In this document: piece after piece, positions 28,956-61,973 of the stretch
How the letters are laid out: every line of letters begins with the position of its first letter
Position numbering within the stretch: position 1 is the stretch's first letter
NCBI RefSeq assembly: GCF_041429775.1
Contig: NZ_CP163421.1
Coordinates: 1,426,001 to 1,490,000 of the forward strand
Source of the DNA: Glycocaulis abyssi
Lineage (GTDB): Bacteria > Pseudomonadota > Alphaproteobacteria > Caulobacterales > Maricaulaceae
Reading direction: 5' to 3'
Length of the DNA stretch: 64,000 bases
Notes under the pieces: generated by a model
Databases searched by the model: none
The model's input: the letters and a program-made list of their open reading frames with translations, nothing else
What the model was told of the DNA's origin: nothing
Made by a program: the position numbers and the translations under genes

Positions 28956-29162
28956 ATGTGCAAATCATCAGATGGACAGGCCGGTACTAAAATTCATGGG
29001 GTCCACATCACTCCTGATATAATGCGCGATGCAGTTGAGTGCATACATGTGTCGCTTCCCCTTGAGGGGAATATCGAGAGTGATTTAGCGAGAGATCAAG
29101 CAGAACAAGTTGTGAAAGATATCGCCGCAATTATCCTTGCAGGGCGATCATGCGGCGCTTAA
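28956..29162 (+). CDS. Hypothetical 68-aa protein inside the IS1595 element
   Basis: An ATG at 28956, just inside the left inverted repeat, opens a 68-codon frame (MCKSSDGQAGTKIHGVHITP..., then LARDQAEQVVKDIAAIILAG) ending 32 bases inside the convergent HEPN gene. It is not recognised. The helical, mildly acidic C-terminus looks protein-like, but there is no clear ribosome binding site, so it could be spurious. Confidence 0.4.
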   Translation: MCKSSDGQAGTKIHGVHITPDIMRDAVECIHVSLPLEGNIESDLARDQAEQVVKDIAAIILAGRSCGA

Positions 29163-29721
29163 ACATTGCATGGGAGAGCGATCCCAAATCAGTGTAGGCA
29201 TCGCATATGGCTTTCGATATTTGTTCGAAGTCCTGCAGTTTGTATATTTGCGGGTGCCCGTATATGCGCGTGAGCAATAGAGCGTCTGGATATGATTTGC
29301 TGACGGCCCATCCATCGTGAGCAATGCTGTTTCGAGATTTGTATGCAGCCCTTATCTGTTTTTTTAATTTTAATGAAAACTGTTCATTTTCTTCAGGAGT
29401 TGCCCGCCATTTGAATAAAGCCTCAACAAGGTCTAGCCGGGCGTTAAAAGATTGAATTTTCTCAAAAACTTGGCTGGCTACAGGATGGTTGGCGGGGGTC
29501 TTCACCCAACCAGGCTCTGGCTCAGGCACGTTAAGATAGTCCCCCATCATTAGGGCGTATAAATCGAGCAGACCCGTTTCCACCAATGTCCAATTCGCAA
29601 TTATGTTGCCAATTTGCGCAGCCAGCTCAGGTCGCTGTAGTATGATGTTTGGGCCATGGGTTATGACTGCACCAGCTTTGCCCGGCTTGGATGATGGACG
29701 CATAGGTTGAGGCATATTCAT
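29131..29721 (-). CDS. HEPN-like passenger protein 1
   Basis: This 196-aa protein starts from ATG 29721, or from ATG 29715 two codons later. Conserved positions shared with the protein at 32207-32773 are Trp 44 and Glu 48 (ANWTLVETGLL), SFNARLDLVEA (91-101) and R-x4-H in KSRNSIAHDGW (Arg 130, His 135). A helical fold with R-x4-6-H is the HEPN RNase signature. The gene is AT-rich. Its ATG overlaps that of the divergent small gene in CATG (29719-29722). Function unknown; a toxin or abortive-infection RNase is one possibility. Confidence 0.65.
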   Translation of the reverse strand: MNMPQPMRPSSKPGKAGAVITHGPNIILQRPELAAQIGNIIANWTLVETGLLDLYALMMGDYLNVPEPEPGWVKTPANHPVASQVFEKIQSFNARLDLVEALFKWRATPEENEQFSLKLKKQIRAAYKSRNSIAHDGWAVSKSYPDALLLTRIYGHPQIYKLQDFEQISKAICDAYTDLGSLSHAMFKRRMIALQG

Positions 29722-29866
29722 GACTGATCCGAAAGATGAACAAGCGAGGTTCGATGACGCCCTCACGCGAATGCTGAACACGCCTCCGACCCCGCAAAAG
29801 CCTAAGCAGAAGCGGGGCAGCAAGCGAGTCCAAAAGGGTCAGGAAAAGCCTAGCGGTGGCGCTTAG
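29720..29866 (+). CDS. MLNTPP small basic protein 1, 48 aa
   Basis: The product is MTDPKDEQARFDDALTRMLN continuing TPPTPQKPKQKRGSKRVQKG and a short tail. A short acidic helix carries the DALxRMLNTPP motif and is followed by a Lys/Arg-rich tail. The same motif, DEALKRMLNTPP, is encoded at the same relative place beside the second HEPN gene (32097-32208). The two start codons overlap on opposite strands. The repeat occurrence supports a real gene. Function unknown; the basic tail suggests nucleic-acid contact. Confidence 0.6.
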   Translation: MTDPKDEQARFDDALTRMLNTPPTPQKPKQKRGSKRVQKGQEKPSGGA

Positions 29867-29895
29867 GCCACTTCACGAACTTCAAGCCGCGTATC

Positions 29896-30855
29896 TCAGG
29901 CGGCTTTGAGTTCACCAATCCGCCGATAGGTGAGGCGCTTGCCTTCAATGGCGCGCAGCGCGGCATTGGCGCGGGCTTCATCGTTGACGCCTAGGCCAGA
30001 GCGGTTGTTGTAGCGAAAATCAAATTCGGCCAAGTAGCGGTGCAGGTGCTTCTCAGCGCAGTGCTGATAGACGCCCTTCATGCCGCGCTTGAAGATTGAG
30101 AAGAAGCCTTCGATTGTGTTGGTATGGACCGCCCCGCGCGCATATTCCTTGGCAGAATGGCGCACGGTTTCATGGGCGGCGTATTGCTCACCAACCATCG
30201 TGTAGAGCTTGCTTTCGTCGGTGTAGATCGTGGCTTCGCGCTTGATGTTCTGGAACATGATTGCGGCAACCGAGGTCTTGTTAGCCGTCTCGACGTGGAA
30301 GGAGCGCACGTTCCCGCCGCGCTCTACCAGCGCCACGACGGCACGCTTGCCAGAGGGGCCGGCACCGCCTTTGAGATACGGACGGCCATAGCGCTGGCGT
30401 GAGGGCTTCGGGTTTTTCTTCTTGCCGAAATAGGTCTCATCAACCTCGACCGGCTGGCCATTGCCACCCACCGGTGGCGGGTTGTCATCGCGCATGGCCT
30501 CACGGATACGGTGCGCCATGAACCATGCGGTCTTATAAGTGACGCCTAGCGTGCGGTGTATCTGGTGGGCGCTCATGCCCTTCTTGCTGGACGTCATCAG
30601 GAATGTGGCGAGGAGCCACTTGTTGAGCGGCACTTTTGAGCGCTCAAACACCGTGCCGACCGTCACAGTGAATTGTTGGCGGCATTCCATGCAGTTGTGA
30701 AGACCGGGGCGGTGCGCCTTGCCCTTCATGGCCGTGATGCGCTCCTGATCCGCATTGCCACAGTGCGGGCAGATAGGGCCATGCGGCCAGCGTTGCGCTT
30801 CAAGGTGCTCGCGGGCTTTGTCAGCGTCATGGAAAATGGGGTTGTCGAGGTGCAT
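29896..30855 (-). CDS. IS1595-family transposase (ISXO2-like DDE)
   Basis: The 319-aa transposase from ATG 30855 (AAGGAG upstream) has an N-terminal zinc ribbon (CPHCGNADQ and CMECRQQF), a helical DNA-binding region (SSKKGMSAHQIHRTLGVTYK), and the ISXO2 catalytic core with VEVDETYFGKK (first Asp), TDESKLY (second Asp) and HTNTIEGFFSIFKRG (Asn/Glu region). It looks complete and uninterrupted. The end RRIGELKAA is also preserved in the remnant at 31124-31200. Confidence 0.93.
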   Translation of the reverse strand: MHLDNPIFHDADKAREHLEAQRWPHGPICPHCGNADQERITAMKGKAHRPGLHNCMECRQQFTVTVGTVFERSKVPLNKWLLATFLMTSSKKGMSAHQIHRTLGVTYKTAWFMAHRIREAMRDDNPPPVGGNGQPVEVDETYFGKKKNPKPSRQRYGRPYLKGGAGPSGKRAVVALVERGGNVRSFHVETANKTSVAAIMFQNIKREATIYTDESKLYTMVGEQYAAHETVRHSAKEYARGAVHTNTIEGFFSIFKRGMKGVYQHCAEKHLHRYLAEFDFRYNNRSGLGVNDEARANAALRAIEGKRLTYRRIGELKAA

Positions 30856-30876
30856 GGCCGTATCTCCTTGATGCAC

Positions 30877-30904
30877 AAGGTATCATCGGCGCATGCTTTG
30901 TCAA
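30877..30904 (-). promoter_or_regulatory. Transposase promoter candidate within the right terminal repeat
   Basis: On the minus strand TTGACA (30904-30899), inside the inverted repeat, is followed after 16 bases by TACCTT (30882-30877). AAGGAG and the transposase ATG come next. The left repeat has TTGAGA at the matching place, so the single mismatch between the two ends falls in this -35 box. Confidence 0.55.
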
Positions 30905-30960
30905 GTATATAATTAGGATAATTTTCCTACATAGATTGTAAAACTCCCTCCGCGCTCACA

Positions 30961-31123
30961 AAATGGCGCGAGGATAAATTATATCAACGCCTTCCCAGAT
31001 CGTTGAAATCAACTATTGATTGAATCTCAAATGCGGGACAACCCACATCACCACAAAGGACGATGATAGGGATAGCGTGGGGGATAAGGGAGGCTGGCCT
31101 ACGCCGCCGGGCGGGTGAGCGAC
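30961..31123. repeat. Long direct repeat, copy A
   Basis: This segment of about 162 bp matches 32792-32955. The first 85 bases and the last 45 are nearly identical, with a diverged block near 31043-31072. It includes AATCAACTATTGATT, a 15-bp palindrome, and ends with the last codons of the DUF2336 gene whose intact copy is at 32931-34004. It therefore looks like host DNA duplicated on the far side of the island. Confidence 0.85.
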
Positions 31124-31200
31124 GGCCACGCAAATGCCGCTCTGCGCGCGTTTTGGAGGCAAGCGCCTGGCCTGCCGGCGGATCGGTGAACTCAAAGCCG
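31124..31200 (+). pseudogene. IS1595-family transposase remnant (3' end only)
   Basis: The segment starting GCAAATGCCGCTCTGCGCGC and ending CGGATCGGTGAACTCAAAGC plus CGCCTGA aligns with the last 25 or so codons of the transposase at 29896-30855, on the opposite strand and with a frameshifting indel. Homology continues past the stop to about 31228. It marks a second, decayed element whose cargo lies to its right. Confidence 0.75.
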
Positions 31201-31338
31201 CCTGAGATACGCGGCTTGAAGTTTGTGAAGTGGCCCAAACGCCGCTAGCGTTGCGATCCCTTTTTCATTCGATGTTCACCACAAAGGAACGAATTTTGTT
31301 GACATCCGTTAACAGAGCGCGCATTTTCTGGTGCAGCA
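31201..31338 (+). promoter_or_regulatory. Leader of the HicA-like/HTH pair with promoter candidate
   Basis: No gene is seen here. TTGACA at 31299-31304 and CATTTT at 31322-31327 (17-base spacer) form a plausible promoter ending 12 bases before the ATG at 31339. TCACCACAAAGGA at 31276-31288 repeats the same 13 bases at 31048-31060. Confidence 0.4.
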
Positions 31339-31593
31339 ATGGCTAAGCGGCCTAGGCACCCAAACAAGGAAATTGAGGCCGCTGTAGCATACTTGGAGTC
31401 CCAAGGATGGATTTGGGAAAGCACAGGGAAAAGCGCCCATAGTTGGGGCAAACTCCTTTGCCCCCAGAACGACCAAACGGGTTGCACAATTTACGTTTGG
31501 TCAACACCAAAAAGCGCCCAAAATCATGCGAAGGGTATTCGCAGAAAAGGCGAAAAATGTGCGCACGCAAAGCAAGGAGGCGAAGATGAATGA
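31339..31593 (+). CDS. HicA-like small protein (toxin candidate)
   Basis: The 84-aa protein reads MAKRPRHPNKEIEAAVAYLE, then SQGWIWESTGKSAHSWGKLL and a C-terminal VWSTPKSAQNHAKGIRRKGE. The order helix, GW, SxHxWGKLLCP, then a strand and a closing helix resembles HicA, with H34 at the place of the catalytic His. It overlaps the downstream HTH gene by eight bases (ATGAATGA). The partner's DNA-binding domain fits a toxin-antitoxin role; the activity is inferred. GC is below the host level. Confidence 0.6.
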   Translation: MAKRPRHPNKEIEAAVAYLESQGWIWESTGKSAHSWGKLLCPQNDQTGCTIYVWSTPKSAQNHAKGIRRKGEKCAHAKQGGEDE

Positions 31594-32065
31594 ATTCGAA
31601 TTTTCCGTTATCGCTTCTGGGTTAGACCCTAGCGATGATGAAACCATTGACCGCTTTTTTAAAGCAGGCTGCGATGACGCAACTGTTGCGTTCGCAAGAG
31701 GTGTGTTCATTTTGTCCTTCATCCGCGAAGCCGCTTCGTTGCAAGAAGCTATCGACTCAGCGGTCGCAAACGTTTGCGAAGCTGGTGCCGAGGTTGAGCG
31801 TGTTGAACCAGATTGCCTAGTGAGCCTTTCGGATATTGCCGAACGGGCAGGACTCACTAGGGCAGCGACGTCACTTTATTCGCAAGGCAAAAGAGGTTCA
31901 GGCTTTCCAAAACCAGTCGCCAGGGTAACGACGAATAGCCCCCTATACGATTGGCCAGAGGTCGCCTCGTGGCTCTCTAAGCACGCTGGTCTCGATGCGG
32001 CAGTGGTAGAAGAGGCAGTTATCATAAAGTCAATCAACGACCGTATTGAGCACGCCGCCGCTTGA
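31586..32065 (+). CDS. HTH DNA-binding protein, antitoxin candidate
   Basis: AAGGAGG precedes the ATG at 31586. The 159-aa product has an N-terminal ferredoxin-like or HicB-like domain (MNEFEFSVIASGLDPSDDET, then ARGVFILSFIREAASLQEAI, about 1-75) and a C-terminal MerR/excisionase-like HTH (LVSLSDIAERAGLTRAATSL, then FPKPVARVTTNSPLYDWPEV). Small HicB-like plus HTH proteins following a HicA-like gene are typical antitoxins. Coupled to the upstream gene by overlap. Confidence 0.65.
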   Translation: MNEFEFSVIASGLDPSDDETIDRFFKAGCDDATVAFARGVFILSFIREAASLQEAIDSAVANVCEAGAEVERVEPDCLVSLSDIAERAGLTRAATSLYSQGKRGSGFPKPVARVTTNSPLYDWPEVASWLSKHAGLDAAVVEEAVIIKSINDRIEHAAA

Positions 32066-32088
32066 AGCCGCAGCGCGAACTTTAAGAG

Positions 32089-32114
32089 AGGCGAGCTTAT
32101 TTGCTCGCCTTTTT
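32089..32114 (+). terminator. Intrinsic terminator after the HicA-like/HTH pair
   Basis: AGGCGAGC (32089-32096), a six-base loop and GCTCGCCT (32103-32110) form a perfect 8-bp stem followed by TTTTTC. The stem also covers the stop codon of the convergent MLNTPP reading frame. Confidence 0.8.
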
Positions 32115-32208
32115 CTTTTTGTCTTCGTGCGTCTTGGGCGGCGTATTCAGCATGCGCTTAAGCGCCTCGTCACGGCGTTGTTCATTGATTTTTTTGAGGC
32201 TTGGGCAT
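32097..32208 (-). pseudogene. MLNTPP small protein 2, frameshifted at an A7 run
   Basis: The ATG at 32208 overlaps the HEPN gene ATG in CATG (32206-32209), as in the intact element. From it the frame reads MPKPQKNQ and stops. Deleting one A from the A7 run (T7 on the plus strand, 32189-32195) would restore MPKPQKINEQRRDEALKRML continuing NTPPKTHEDKKKKASK, 36 aa. Total length 112 = 37 codons plus one base. It is either decayed, or expressed through slippage or a non-ATG start downstream. Confidence 0.6.
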
Positions 32209-32773
32209 GTCAAAAACTCACGAGACTTTGGATGAAGCCGAAAACGAAAGGCAGGCTGCCTATACGCTTGTTGGAGAAGCACTTTCCTTGTGGAACCAAA
32301 TCGAAGGCTCGTTGGCCTTTCTCTTCGCCAGCTATCTCAAAACCGACGCCTCCATAGCCATGGCATCTTATCACGCAGTGATCAGCTTTGAAGCCCGACT
32401 AGCTATGGTAAATGCTGCGGCTGAAAAGAAGCTTCGATTACACCCAGAGCTTTTTGATAGATGGAAGACCCTTTCCGGGCGCATTTCAAAAAAAGCAAAA
32501 AAGCGGGCAGAAATCGCGCATTGCACCATTATGATTATGGAGCATAACGGAAGATACACGGTAGAAGCGCTACCATACTGGCATTTTTCTAAATTACTCG
32601 CTGGGGCCAAATACAGAGGGCCGGGGTTGATGCCGGTTGCTCCAAACGGATTATCTCTTTCCCTGAAACAGCTAGATGACCGCATTGCCTCTTTTAAGGA
32701 TTTAAATGCGCGCATTATTGACCTCAATGGGGACGTTGAACGAGCTTCACAGCCGCCTGAAGAAGCTCCCTAA
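32207..32773 (+). CDS. HEPN-like passenger protein 2
   Basis: This 188-aa protein starts at ATG 32207 with GAGG seven bases upstream. It shares with the protein at 29131-29721 Trp 29 and Glu 33 (LSLWNQIEGSL), SFEARLAMVNA (60-70) and the R-x4-H motif in KKRAEIAHC (Arg 100, His 105). Overall identity is low, so the two cargo copies diverged long ago. Helical throughout, with no membrane segment. AT-rich compared with the chromosome. Confidence 0.65.
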   Translation: MSKTHETLDEAENERQAAYTLVGEALSLWNQIEGSLAFLFASYLKTDASIAMASYHAVISFEARLAMVNAAAEKKLRLHPELFDRWKTLSGRISKKAKKRAEIAHCTIMIMEHNGRYTVEALPYWHFSKLLAGAKYRGPGLMPVAPNGLSLSLKQLDDRIASFKDLNARIIDLNGDVERASQPPEEAP

Positions 32774-32791
32774 CCAGAAGCGGATCATCGC

Positions 32792-32955
32792 AAATGGCGC
32801 AAGGATAAACCTTATCAACGCCTTCCCAGATCGTTGAAATCAACTATTGATTGAATCTCAAATGCGGGACAACCTGCGCCGCCCCAAGGGACGCTGGCCG
32901 GGGATAGCGTGGGGGATAAGGGAGGCTGGCCTACGCCGCCGGGCGGGTGAGCGAC
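32792..32955. repeat. Long direct repeat, copy B
   Basis: Counterpart of 30961-31123, starting AAATGGCGCAAGGATAAA and ending within the last codons of the intact DUF2336 gene. The middle block (about 32872-32905) is GC-rich here and differs from copy A. The two copies bracket the 1.67-kb decayed element. Confidence 0.85.
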
Positions 32956-34004
32956 CAGTTCCAGTAGCGCAGCACTGTCTGAGCCTTGTCGACCGAGAGC
33001 GTGTCGAACACGTAGCGCGCCTGCTCAGGCGCGGGATCGCCGCGCCCGGCCGCCTGCAAAAGCGCCATCAAATGCCCGCGCGACAGACCCGTTGCCTTGG
33101 TCAGAACGGCCAGTGGTTCGCCGCCGAAATCGGCCAGCATCCGGTCCAGAAGAGAGCGCTGGATGTTTGCCAGCCTCGCCATCTCGTCAATGAGTTCGGG
33201 GGCGAGGCCCGTGCGGGCGGCCTCTTCGATAGCCCCGTCGAGTGAACCGTAGGGCGACTGGTCGGCTGCCGCACGATTACGCTGGCGCCGCTCGATATAG
33301 CTCAAGGCGCGCCCGATCAGCTCATCGCGCGGCGTTTCGCTGGCCGCCAGCGGGAACACGTCCTCGGCGGCGTCCTGCAATATCGTCCGGCCAACGGCAA
33401 AGCGCTCCAGCAAGGCCCGGCGCTCTGCATGGCCACACTCCCAGAACAGCGTCATCGCCTGCGCCGGGCGCAATTCGGCGCGCTTGATGAGAAGATGGGC
33501 GAGCGCCAGCTCGCTACCGGCCATCTGCGCCAGCCGGTCAACGGTCTGGCTTGCGAGCCTCGCCCCCGGATTGGCCAGCAGCGTCTGAATCTCAGATGTA
33601 TCGCCCGCCGACACCAGCGCCGCCGAGACGACTTCGCTGACATGCTCGCGCCGGGCGATGGCGAGACGGTGGCGCCCCTCCCCCTTGGCGGCAATCTCCA
33701 TCAGGTCGAAATCGGTCAGGGCGCGGGCCGATTGCAAAATGGGCTCGGCAACCTCGTATGTGTCCAGCGCCAGACGCCGCAACAGGCCCGGCGGGGCCTC
33801 GGCCTGCTCTGCGAGCCGTCTGGCAATGCGCACACGCAGATCCGGCGCGGCATGGCGCATGATCTCTTCGAGCACATCGGCCACCACCCAGCGCTCCTGC
33901 GGGCTGACCTGGCTGGAGGGCAGGCACACAATGTCGGCAAGCCTGCGCGTCAGCCGGGAACGGGCCGTCACGCTCGGCGCAGTTGCAGGATCGGCTCGGT
34001 CCAT
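32931..34004 (-). CDS. DUF2336 domain protein, second paralogue
   Basis: The 357-aa protein shares the DUF2336 plan with the gene at 15565-16650: RRLADIVCLPSSQVSPQERW, LALDTYEVAEPILQSARALT, EGRHRLAIARREHVSEVVSA, and a C-terminal LTKATGLSRGHLMALLQAAG. Identity between the two is moderate, so this is not a recent duplication. Its last codons and 3' flank are duplicated at 30961-31123, where the island lies. Function unknown. Confidence 0.85.
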   Translation of the reverse strand: MDRADPATAPSVTARSRLTRRLADIVCLPSSQVSPQERWVVADVLEEIMRHAAPDLRVRIARRLAEQAEAPPGLLRRLALDTYEVAEPILQSARALTDFDLMEIAAKGEGRHRLAIARREHVSEVVSAALVSAGDTSEIQTLLANPGARLASQTVDRLAQMAGSELALAHLLIKRAELRPAQAMTLFWECGHAERRALLERFAVGRTILQDAAEDVFPLAASETPRDELIGRALSYIERRQRNRAAADQSPYGSLDGAIEEAARTGLAPELIDEMARLANIQRSLLDRMLADFGGEPLAVLTKATGLSRGHLMALLQAAGRGDPAPEQARYVFDTLSVDKAQTVLRYWNWSLTRPAA

Positions 34005-58986: not shown

Positions 58987-59262
58987 ATGGATACGATCCT
59001 CACCTTCAGCCAAGCGCGCGCCAGCCTGAAAGCGCTGATGGAGCGCGTCACCGGCAACAAGGCTCCGGCCATCATCACCCGTCAGGGCGGTGAGCCGGTG
59101 GTCATGGTGCCGCTGTCTGAATGGGAAGCCATTCAGGAGACGAATTATCTGCTCAAAAGCCCGGCCAATGCCGCGCGCCTTGCCGCCTCCATCGCCGCTG
59201 CGGACAAGGGCGAAGCCGTGCGCCACAGCGCCGACGAGCTTGCCGCGCTGCTGGACCGGTGA
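58987..59262 (+). CDS. yefM: YefM/Phd-family antitoxin
   Basis: The 91-aa protein has a Phd/YefM N-terminal DNA-binding fold (MDTILTFSQARASLKALMER then NKAPAIITRQGGEPVVMVPL) and a helical, acidic C-terminus that would wrap the toxin (DKGEAVRHSADELAALLDR). It is the first gene of the pair and overlaps the toxin start as GTGA. Confidence 0.9.
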   Translation: MDTILTFSQARASLKALMERVTGNKAPAIITRQGGEPVVMVPLSEWEAIQETNYLLKSPANAARLAASIAAADKGEAVRHSADELAALLDR

Positions 59263-59525
59263 ATGTAGAGCTGACGCCTCAGGCCCTTGAGGATATTGGC
59301 TGGCTGGCCGCCCAGCAGCCCAAACTTCTCAAACGCTGCCTGAAACTCATCGAGGATATACGCCGCGCGCCATTTGATGGCCTTGGCAAGCCTGAACCGC
59401 TAAAGGGTTCGCTGTCGGGCTGGTGGTCGCGCCGCATTGATGGCGAACACCGCCTCGTCTACCGCGTCACCGGAGCGGGCGAGGACGCCCGCATCCAGAT
59501 CGTGCAGTGCCGGTATCATTATTGA
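59259..59525 (+). CDS. yoeB: YoeB/Txe-family mRNA interferase toxin
   Basis: A GTG at 59259 gives 88 aa. The RelE-like fold reads LTPQALEDIGWLAAQQPKLL, LIEDIRRAPFDGLGKPEPLK and the catalytic end WWSRRIDGEHRLVYRVTG then QCRYHY (C-terminal His-Tyr as in YoeB, with Glu and Arg upstream). It cleaves mRNA on ribosomes when free of antitoxin. Confidence 0.92.
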   Translation: MNVELTPQALEDIGWLAAQQPKLLKRCLKLIEDIRRAPFDGLGKPEPLKGSLSGWWSRRIDGEHRLVYRVTGAGEDARIQIVQCRYHY

Positions 59526-59657
59526 GTGCCATGCCCACTGGTCACGTTCTCGGCAGATCGGCATAGTAAAAATCCGCGCCTCTTGCACGTCACCTCTCAA
59601 GACAGCGTCGAGCCAAGTAACGCACTTTCTTATTGAAAAATATCGGTAAAATTAAAA

Positions 59658-60434
59658 ATGACAGTAGTCGCTGTTCATAAAAACCCTCAAGGCATACATT
59701 TAATATCGGACTCTCGACTTACAATCGGCAGCTCAAAAATTGACGTAGGCGTAAAGGTATGCGCGATAGATTATCGAATATTTGGAGCGAGAAACCCTGA
59801 CGGCACTCAGCCTGAGCTTGCCACTGGCCGCTTCGGATTTTGCTTTGCTGGAAGTTCACTCACGGCTTATGCAGTCAAAGAGTCCATAGCTGAGATTGTT
59901 TACAATATTCAAACCACGATAGATAAACGCCTGCTTTCTTTTAGACATTTGTCCGAGATCGTTTTCGACGCGTACGTGGCATTATCAACGGAAATTGCCA
60001 GTTATTTAAGCAAGAATAGCTTCGCCACAATAGTTATTTGTGGCAAACTCCCCGCTGACAACGAGCCTAGGGCATTCTGGCTAAAGCTTCGCGACGATGG
60101 AAGTGTAGATTCCAGTGAAGTTGATTTTCAACAAAGCAATTCCACGATCTTTGGCTCCGGTGAAAAATTTATCGATAAGGACAAACGTGAAGGATTGGGG
60201 GCCTTGGCACACGAAATAAATCGCATATGTAATGATGGATCAGTTGACGATGTGGGGCCTCCAATTCAATTTGGTCGCTGCGACTCCCAAGGCAATTTCA
60301 AGTGTTTTGGACAGATTATAATTGATGATAACGGAGTGCAGCACGCAAGGGCGGGGATAGATCTCAATAATCTGAACAGCATCAGATCGGGAACATTCAA
60401 TCCTCTTTTTGAATATATAGAGCTATCGGATTAA
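59658..60434 (+). CDS. HslV-like Ntn-hydrolase, orphan and AT-rich
   Basis: This 258-aa protein carries HslV/proteasome-like marks. If Thr 2 becomes the N-terminal nucleophile after Met removal, Asp 18 (ISDSR) falls at the conserved position 17, Lys 33 (VGVKVCAI) at about 32-33, GFCFAGSSLTA (60-70) matches the HslV GFAG region, and IFGSGEKF (164-171) the AIGSGG segment. It is longer than HslV (about 175 aa), with an extra C-terminal part. No HslU-like ATPase is adjacent. Base composition is far below the host GC, suggesting transfer. A defence or signalling protease role is only inference. Confidence 0.6.
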   Translation: MTVVAVHKNPQGIHLISDSRLTIGSSKIDVGVKVCAIDYRIFGARNPDGTQPELATGRFGFCFAGSSLTAYAVKESIAEIVYNIQTTIDKRLLSFRHLSEIVFDAYVALSTEIASYLSKNSFATIVICGKLPADNEPRAFWLKLRDDGSVDSSEVDFQQSNSTIFGSGEKFIDKDKREGLGALAHEINRICNDGSVDDVGPPIQFGRCDSQGNFKCFGQIIIDDNGVQHARAGIDLNNLNSIRSGTFNPLFEYIELSD

Positions 60435-60440
60435 CAGCCC

Positions 60441-61973
60441 TCACAACGGAATATTGTCGTGCTTTTTCCAAGGATTGGAAAGCTTCTTATCCCGGAGCGT
60501 ACGAAGGGCTTTAATCAAACGCACGCGCGTATTGCGCGGCTGGATCACGTCATCGAGATAGCCGCGTGAGGCGGCGACGAACGGGTTGGCAAAGCGGGTC
60601 TCGTAGTCCTTCACGTGTTCGGCCATTTTTTCCGCGTCATCCATATCCTTGCGGAAGATGATCTCGGCGGCGCCCTTGGGCCCCATCACGGCGATCTCCG
60701 CCGTCGGCCAGGCATAGTTCACATCGCCGCGAAGGTGTTTCGACGCCATCACGTCATACGCGCCGCCATAGGCCTTGCGGGTGATGACGGTGAGTTTGGG
60801 CACGGTGGCTTCGGCGTAGGCGAAGAGCAGTTTCGCGCCGTGCTTGATCAGCCCGCCATATTCCTGGCGCGTGCCCGGCAGGAAGCCTGGCACATCGACA
60901 AAGGTGATGATCGGTATTTCAAACGCATCGCAGAAACGCACAAAGCGCGCGGCCTTCTTCGAGGCATCGATATCGAGCACGCCAGCGAGCGAAAGCGGCT
61001 GGTTGGCGACAAAGCCCACCGTCTGGCCTTCGAGACGGCCAAAGCCGACCACGATATTTTTCGCATAGTCCGGCGCGATCTCGAAGAAATCGCCCTCGTC
61101 TGCTGTCTTCACGATCAGCTCGCGGATATCATAGGGCTTGTTGGGATTGGGCGGTACCAGCGTATCAAGGCTCGGCTCCACACGGGCAGGATCGTCATAC
61201 ACCTCGCGCACTGGCGGCTTGTTGCGGTTATTGAGGGGGAGAAAATCGATCAGGCGGCGCATCTGCGCCAGCGCTTCGATATCGTTGGAGAAGGCCCCGT
61301 CGGCCACCCCGGACTTCTTCGCGTGGACGCTCGCCCCGCCGAGCTCCTCATGGGTGACAATCTCGTTGGTGACGGTTTTGACCACGTCCGGCCCCGTCAC
61401 ATACATATAGCTGGTATCCTTCACCATGAAGATGAAGTCGGTCATGGCGGGCGAATAGACATCCCCGCCCGCGCACGGGCCCATGATGACGCTGATCTGC
61501 GGGATCACGCCGCTGGCGAGCACATTGTTCTGGAAGATTTCCGCATAGCCGCCCAGCGCATCAACCCCTTCCTGGATGCGGGCGCCGCCCGCATCAAACA
61601 GGCCAATGATCGGCGCGCCGTTTTTCAGCGCGGTTTCCTGCAGGCGGGTAATCTTGCGCGCATGGGCCAGCGACAGCGAGCCGCCAAACACGGTGAAATC
61701 CTTGGCGAACACGTAGACAAGGCGGCCATTCACGGTGCCAGAGCCCGTCACCACGCCATCGCCGGGAATTTTCGATTCGCCCATGCCAAAATCGGTGCAC
61801 TGGTGCTCGACAAACATGCCGGTCTCTTCAAACGAGCCGGGGTCGAGCAGGACTTCCAGGCGCTCGCGCGCGGTCAGCTTGCCTTTTTCATGCTGGGCGG
61901 CGATCCGCTTTTTACCACCACCGAGGCGCGCCGCTGCGCGCTTGTCATCAAGCTGTTCGAGAATGGGTTTCAT
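60441..61973 (-). CDS. pccB: Acyl-CoA (propionyl-CoA) carboxylase beta subunit
   Basis: From ATG 61973 the 510-aa protein matches the carboxyltransferase subunit. The N-terminal CoA half has [20 protein letters not shown] and [20 protein letters not shown]; the C-terminal biotin half has [20 protein letters not shown] and [20 protein letters not shown]. It transfers CO2 from biotin to propionyl-CoA (or a related acyl-CoA). The biotin-carrying alpha subunit is not in the window. Confidence 0.93.

Follow-up and report, generated by a model that had tools for sequence, protein, structure and literature searches.

The 258-aa open reading frame at positions 59658-60434 (+ strand) of the window, i.e. 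the whole 64,000-nucleotide stretch of the Glycocaulis abyssi genome analysed here, encodes a predicted proteasome-fold Ntn-hydrolase of the PHROG 16034 family, as judged from the reading frame, the PHROG match, residue conservation and a fold model. The gene is acquired and mobile, and its product is likely to be an unfoldase-independent N-terminal-threonine hydrolase that serves as a single-gene anti-phage effector. The defence function is assigned from position in two unrelated genomic settings: the gene and its relatives occupy sites that elsewhere carry anti-virus genes, and so probably represent a new single-gene phage defence.

The frame runs from ATG to TAA and was confirmed as a real open reading frame. 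Its GC content is 43.9% (0.439), against 63.3% (0.633) for the window, and its GC3 is 41% (0.413), against 0.69-0.83 for the neighbouring genes; about 0.16% of the window's 777-nt windows are equally AT-rich, every one of them at this gene. It follows the antitoxin gene yefM (58987-59262, +) and the toxin gene yoeB (59259-59525, +), which overlaps yefM, and it is convergent with a gene on the - strand (60441-61973), which, judging by its sequence, we take to encode an acyl-CoA carboxylase of the beta type. These results agree with the initial annotation, which had described an AT-rich gene in a GC-rich genome, placed right after a YefM/YoeB module (both proteins are recognized by Pfam and NCBIfam) and with no unfoldase nearby: it is flanked by yoeB and the carboxylase gene, and no unfoldase gene, hslU included, adjoins it. 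Searches around the gene found neither attachment-site repeats nor a promoter above chance.

Acquisition is evident from comparison with the same genus, in which five genomes keep the flanks and lack the gene. Homology to the sister species G008 and G009 extends up to 59526 and picks up again at 60440-60443 (at 60440 for G009), delimiting an inserted segment at 59527-60439, in place of which G008 has a 243-bp junction; because homology to the sister genomes breaks around the gene, it must have been acquired. By contrast, YefM-YoeB is syntenic in G008 and G009 (at 92-96% identity) and native in composition, and therefore was not co-acquired; the pair lies outside the acquired unit, in which its inclusion is ruled out. 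The initial annotation had proposed an acquired defence gene on the strength of the adjacent YefM/YoeB module. Both the acquisition and, by position, the defence assignment stand, but YefM-YoeB is an older resident and not the reason for the latter, for which the evidence comes instead from a landing site for defence-type genes found across the bacterial family, and from relatives in satellite cargo slots.

The active-site residues are those of proteasome-like Ntn-hydrolases, for which the reference positions are the triad Thr1, Asp17 and Lys33 and the oxyanion Gly47 (PMC8665760); the equivalents here are T2, D18, K33 and G65. In an alignment of seven family members, T2, D18, R20, K33, F63, G65 and G166-S167-G168 are invariant. 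Addition of the most distant relative, found in the genome G982 of an Enterobacterales-centred set (23% identity by BLASTP, E 2e-9), reduces the invariant set to T2, D18, K33 and G65, with R20, F63 and GSG no longer conserved throughout; the RAGxDLN segment and GSG are missing from this protein. The eight relatives that keep these four residues share 19-28% identity with the query, and Thr2, immediately after Met1, is invariant across relatives. All placements made by the initial annotation (Thr 2, Asp 18, Lys 33, FAG at residues 63-65 and GSG at 166-168) were recovered, and neither Thr2 nor Lys33, on which its reading depended, is lost in any of the eight relatives. The assignment of Thr2 as putative nucleophile (Thr1 after Met removal) and of Asp18 and Lys33 as the rest of the triad is well supported by conservation, as is that of Gly65, at the strand-4/helix-1 junction, as the predicted oxyanion hole, and the invariant residues suggest catalytic competence. 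A codon-based comparison of the more closely related satellite copies gave dN/dS of about 0.11-0.23, indicating that the protein is under purifying selection.

The proteasome fold is likewise well supported, on a predicted structure. An AlphaFold2 model built from seven sequences has modest confidence (mean pLDDT 55, pTM 0.60; residues 19-32 and 218-258 with pLDDT < 50). Foldseek returned 365 matches in the PDB at E <= 1e-3 (E 2e-6 for the match to Anbu and 20S subunits), and the best 50 of these 365 are all proteasome or Anbu subunits, while VIA against the PDB gave Z 13.7 to Anbu 5nyw (179 aligned residues, rmsd 4.2) and Z 13.4 to mycobacterial PrcB. On this modest-pLDDT model, both searches point to the four-layer alpha-beta-beta-alpha sandwich with proteasome topology; the order of strands and helices fits a proteasome subunit, and residue 2 superposes on the Thr1 position (VIA). 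The structure prediction called for by the initial annotation thus yielded a match to proteasome and Anbu subunits with Thr2 on the catalytic Thr1. Among the viral matches is a phage protein that carries the annotation HslV.

Searches of Pfam, NCBIfam, PADLOC and PDB sequences did not recognize the protein, with phmmer and profile searches of the PDB giving chance or helical-design matches only, and PADLOC, which matched neither the protein nor its relatives, offers no known defence-system model that fits. The protein and its satellite relatives do match PHROG 16034 (8e-14 to 2e-195), which itself assigns no function. Relatives occur on an Enterobacter plasmid (25.7% identity, E 2e-13), in IMG/VR contigs and in E. 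coli A37, as well as in G982, the one genome out of 395 in the Enterobacterales-centred set. None was found in the other genomes searched from the family (0/136), class (0/384) and phylum (0/397), in GenBank phages, or in scans of genome contigs; a degenerate DNA scan gave 59 stretches, only three of which encode the family, all on contigs already known.

The first of the two genomic settings is the 3' end of the carboxylase gene, which was surveyed across the bacterial family for AT-rich open reading frames of at least 170 aa. Such a frame abuts it in 7 of the 25 readable genomes, 'same slot' here meaning the same carboxylase 3' end and not full synteny, since the wider neighbourhood varies between genera; in one sister species the position is empty. 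Apart from the Ntn-hydrolase gene (G000), four of the six occupants match defence models: two PD-T7-4 / DUF4145 genes (G011, L028:2869-3696, PADLOC 1e-65; G096, L040:3040-3825, PADLOC 2.8e-60), a RelA/SpoT protein (G093, PDC-S33, 4.9e-94) and a putAbiC protein (G062, PF16872, 4.6e-15). The other two are an AT-rich 176-aa protein lacking any family match, a candidate defence gene (G009, L026:1371-1901), and an AT-rich 260-aa membrane protein with no PADLOC match (G089, L037:3036-3815). PD-T7-4 is a validated defence family, identified by selecting experimentally for phage defence (PMC9519451), whereas the PDC models of PADLOC are predicted systems, not validated ones. As a small control, four conserved genes of the window were scanned, giving one weak match only. 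Its contents across the family thus mark the carboxylase 3' end as a site at which single genes of defence type land.

The second setting is the cargo slot of E. coli-type phage satellites with their own capsid gene, in which relatives lie immediately after int-alpA. In E. coli A37, the relative directly follows int and alpA in an element that is inserted in a prophage capsid gene and carries genes for a primase, SSB and a small terminase along with capsid and decoration genes of its own, a layout that, from its genes alone, we take to be that of capsid-forming phage-inducible islands. At the same satellite position, other E. coli carry a TIR protein (PDC-S35, 7e-67), a DUF2971 protein or a putative abortive-infection protein (putAbiC-like), and strain MLI106K3 carries a 265-aa membrane protein in the cargo slot (L007:8388-9185; PHROG 2611, 6e-7). 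The slots also hold genes with no defence match, as in G009, G089 and E. coli FDAARGOS_1296, and the AbiC-like type and the Ntn-hydrolase family are common to both, although the slots are unrelated. The Ntn-hydrolase family is thus located in defence hotspots of two kinds, the chromosomal slot and the satellite cargo slot.

In some satellites a second gene accompanies the hydrolase gene. It encodes 179-180 aa and overlaps or abuts the hydrolase gene in four loci (L010:6828-7367, L011:4391-4933, L012:4055-4597 and L013:6833-7372), with a shorter version after the hydrolase gene in a fifth (L015:1509-1949); the motif RNKxxH is invariant in all of them (PHROG 5483). The spacing of this motif is compatible with HEPN ribonucleases, making the second gene a possible HEPN ribonuclease partner. 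A model of its product reached pLDDT 43 and gave no usable match, so that the term 'HEPN-like' refers to the short motif only. The partner gene is absent beside the window gene, the E. coli A37 copy and the Enterobacter plasmid copy. In G982, the relative is followed by a 237-aa membrane protein (L120:2453-3166) and then by an apparent transposase fragment.

In the mechanism we propose, the host methionine aminopeptidase would remove Met1, as expected from the small size of Thr2, and so leave Thr1 exposed as the nucleophile, with Asp17, Lys32 and the Gly64 backbone (mature numbering) completing the active site. The hydrolase would need Met removal alone to become active, and no dedicated unfoldase. 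During infection it would cleave one or a few specific host or phage proteins, and this cleavage would halt either phage growth or the cell itself. The open-access literature contained no link of the PHROG 16034 family, or of any Ntn, HslV-like or proteasome-like protein, to phage defence. A broader and rather speculative extension, which we think has a small chance of being right, is that proteasome-fold threonine hydrolases are phage-triggered, unfoldase-free immune effectors, one satellite subgroup of which would gate the RNKxxH (HEPN-like) protein by cleavage, switching it on or off in a protease-gated RNase defence.

Since the gene lies within satellites or prophage regions in six IMG/VR contigs and in E. 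coli A37, it could instead belong to satellite biology, helping satellites in competing with their helper phage or in exploiting it (for example, by cleavage of one of its structural or regulatory proteins); the chromosomal copy would then be a stray passenger. We consider this unlikely, because the copies in the window and in G982 have no visible satellite around them and retain their catalytic residues, and because in both settings the slots hold genes of general defence type, as opposed to satellite core genes. The fold class shared with Anbu would also suit a housekeeping-type proteasome homologue without an unfoldase, of the BPH or Anbu kind, that clears unfolded proteins under stress and is unrelated to phage, in line with the unfoldase-independent clearance that Fuchs et al. 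propose (PMC8665760). Such a role is hard to reconcile with the very sporadic distribution reported above (a single genome in 395 of one set, and none in the three others), the foreign composition, the location in a variable slot, and the presence of the genome's own HslV 594 kb away, and we rate it as improbable.

A further possibility concerns the chemistry. Connectase has an active-site-covering insertion between strands 3 and 4 (PMC8665760), and the spacing from triad lysine to oxyanion glycine, 32 residues here vs 14 in the 20S proteasome (about 18 additional), corresponds to an insertion at the same site, which leaves room for a ligase or for a protease of high specificity. That the protein is a protein ligase like connectase, or a small-molecule amidase, nevertheless has a low probability in our estimate, as the inserted stretch is modelled without confidence and nothing indicates a ligation substrate. 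The anti-phage effector with proteolytic activity is the reading that we prefer.

The window contains a second low-GC stretch (29000-33000, GC 0.51-0.57), likely another acquired island. Its genes encode an apparent IS1595-type transposase (29896-30876, - strand), a match to PADLOC PDC-M06B (31526-32065, 1.5e-25) and, at 29131-29823 and 32201-32773, two small proteins with no PADLOC match.

No role is known for many divergent bacterial proteasome relatives, and the survey reporting them saw no genomic context hinting at one (PMC8665760). The context of the PHROG 16034 family, in defence slots of both chromosome and satellites, makes a proteasome-like role in bacterial immunity directly testable, and further unknown defence genes may be read off at the carboxylase 3' end in this bacterial family.

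Among known systems, PD-T7-4, PDC-S33, PDC-S35 and putAbiC resemble the Ntn-hydrolase as single genes in the same chromosomal or satellite slots, but belong to unrelated protein families with different chemistries. HslV (ClpQ) shares the fold class and the active-site plan, and in the best local alignment D18 and FAG line up with it. However, a canonical HslV of 183 aa is encoded separately in the genome; it is 75 residues shorter than the protein studied here (the initial annotation had put the difference at about 80), and the profile comparison of the two by hhalign is not significant (E 0.11); a PF00227 search of the genome retrieved the true HslV only. Membership of HslV was accordingly rejected, as the protein has no significant match to the HslV or Pfam Proteasome profiles and no adjoining hslU. 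Of the initial label 'HslV-like', the Ntn/proteasome fold is retained, but Anbu and 20S subunits, not HslV, come closest in fold. With Anbu and the 20S beta subunit (PrcB) it shares the predicted fold, the Thr1/Asp17/Lys33 register, the oxyanion glycine between strand 4 and helix 1, and a Met-Thr start with no propeptide, and its chemistry should resemble that of a proteasome or Anbu subunit. It differs from them in having no significant sequence similarity, in the extra residues between strands 3 and 4, and in being a mobile single gene with neither a proteasome operon nor an AAA+ partner. By description, it is also like the 22 proteasome-like homologues (e.g. GPH, DPH, PPH, AAH) reported by Fuchs, Alva and Lupas in 2021 (PMC8665760), which are divergent, rare and bacterial, in some cases phage-carried, and without a known unfoldase. 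For those homologues no informative genomic context was reported (PMC8665760), whereas the PHROG 16034 family has one.
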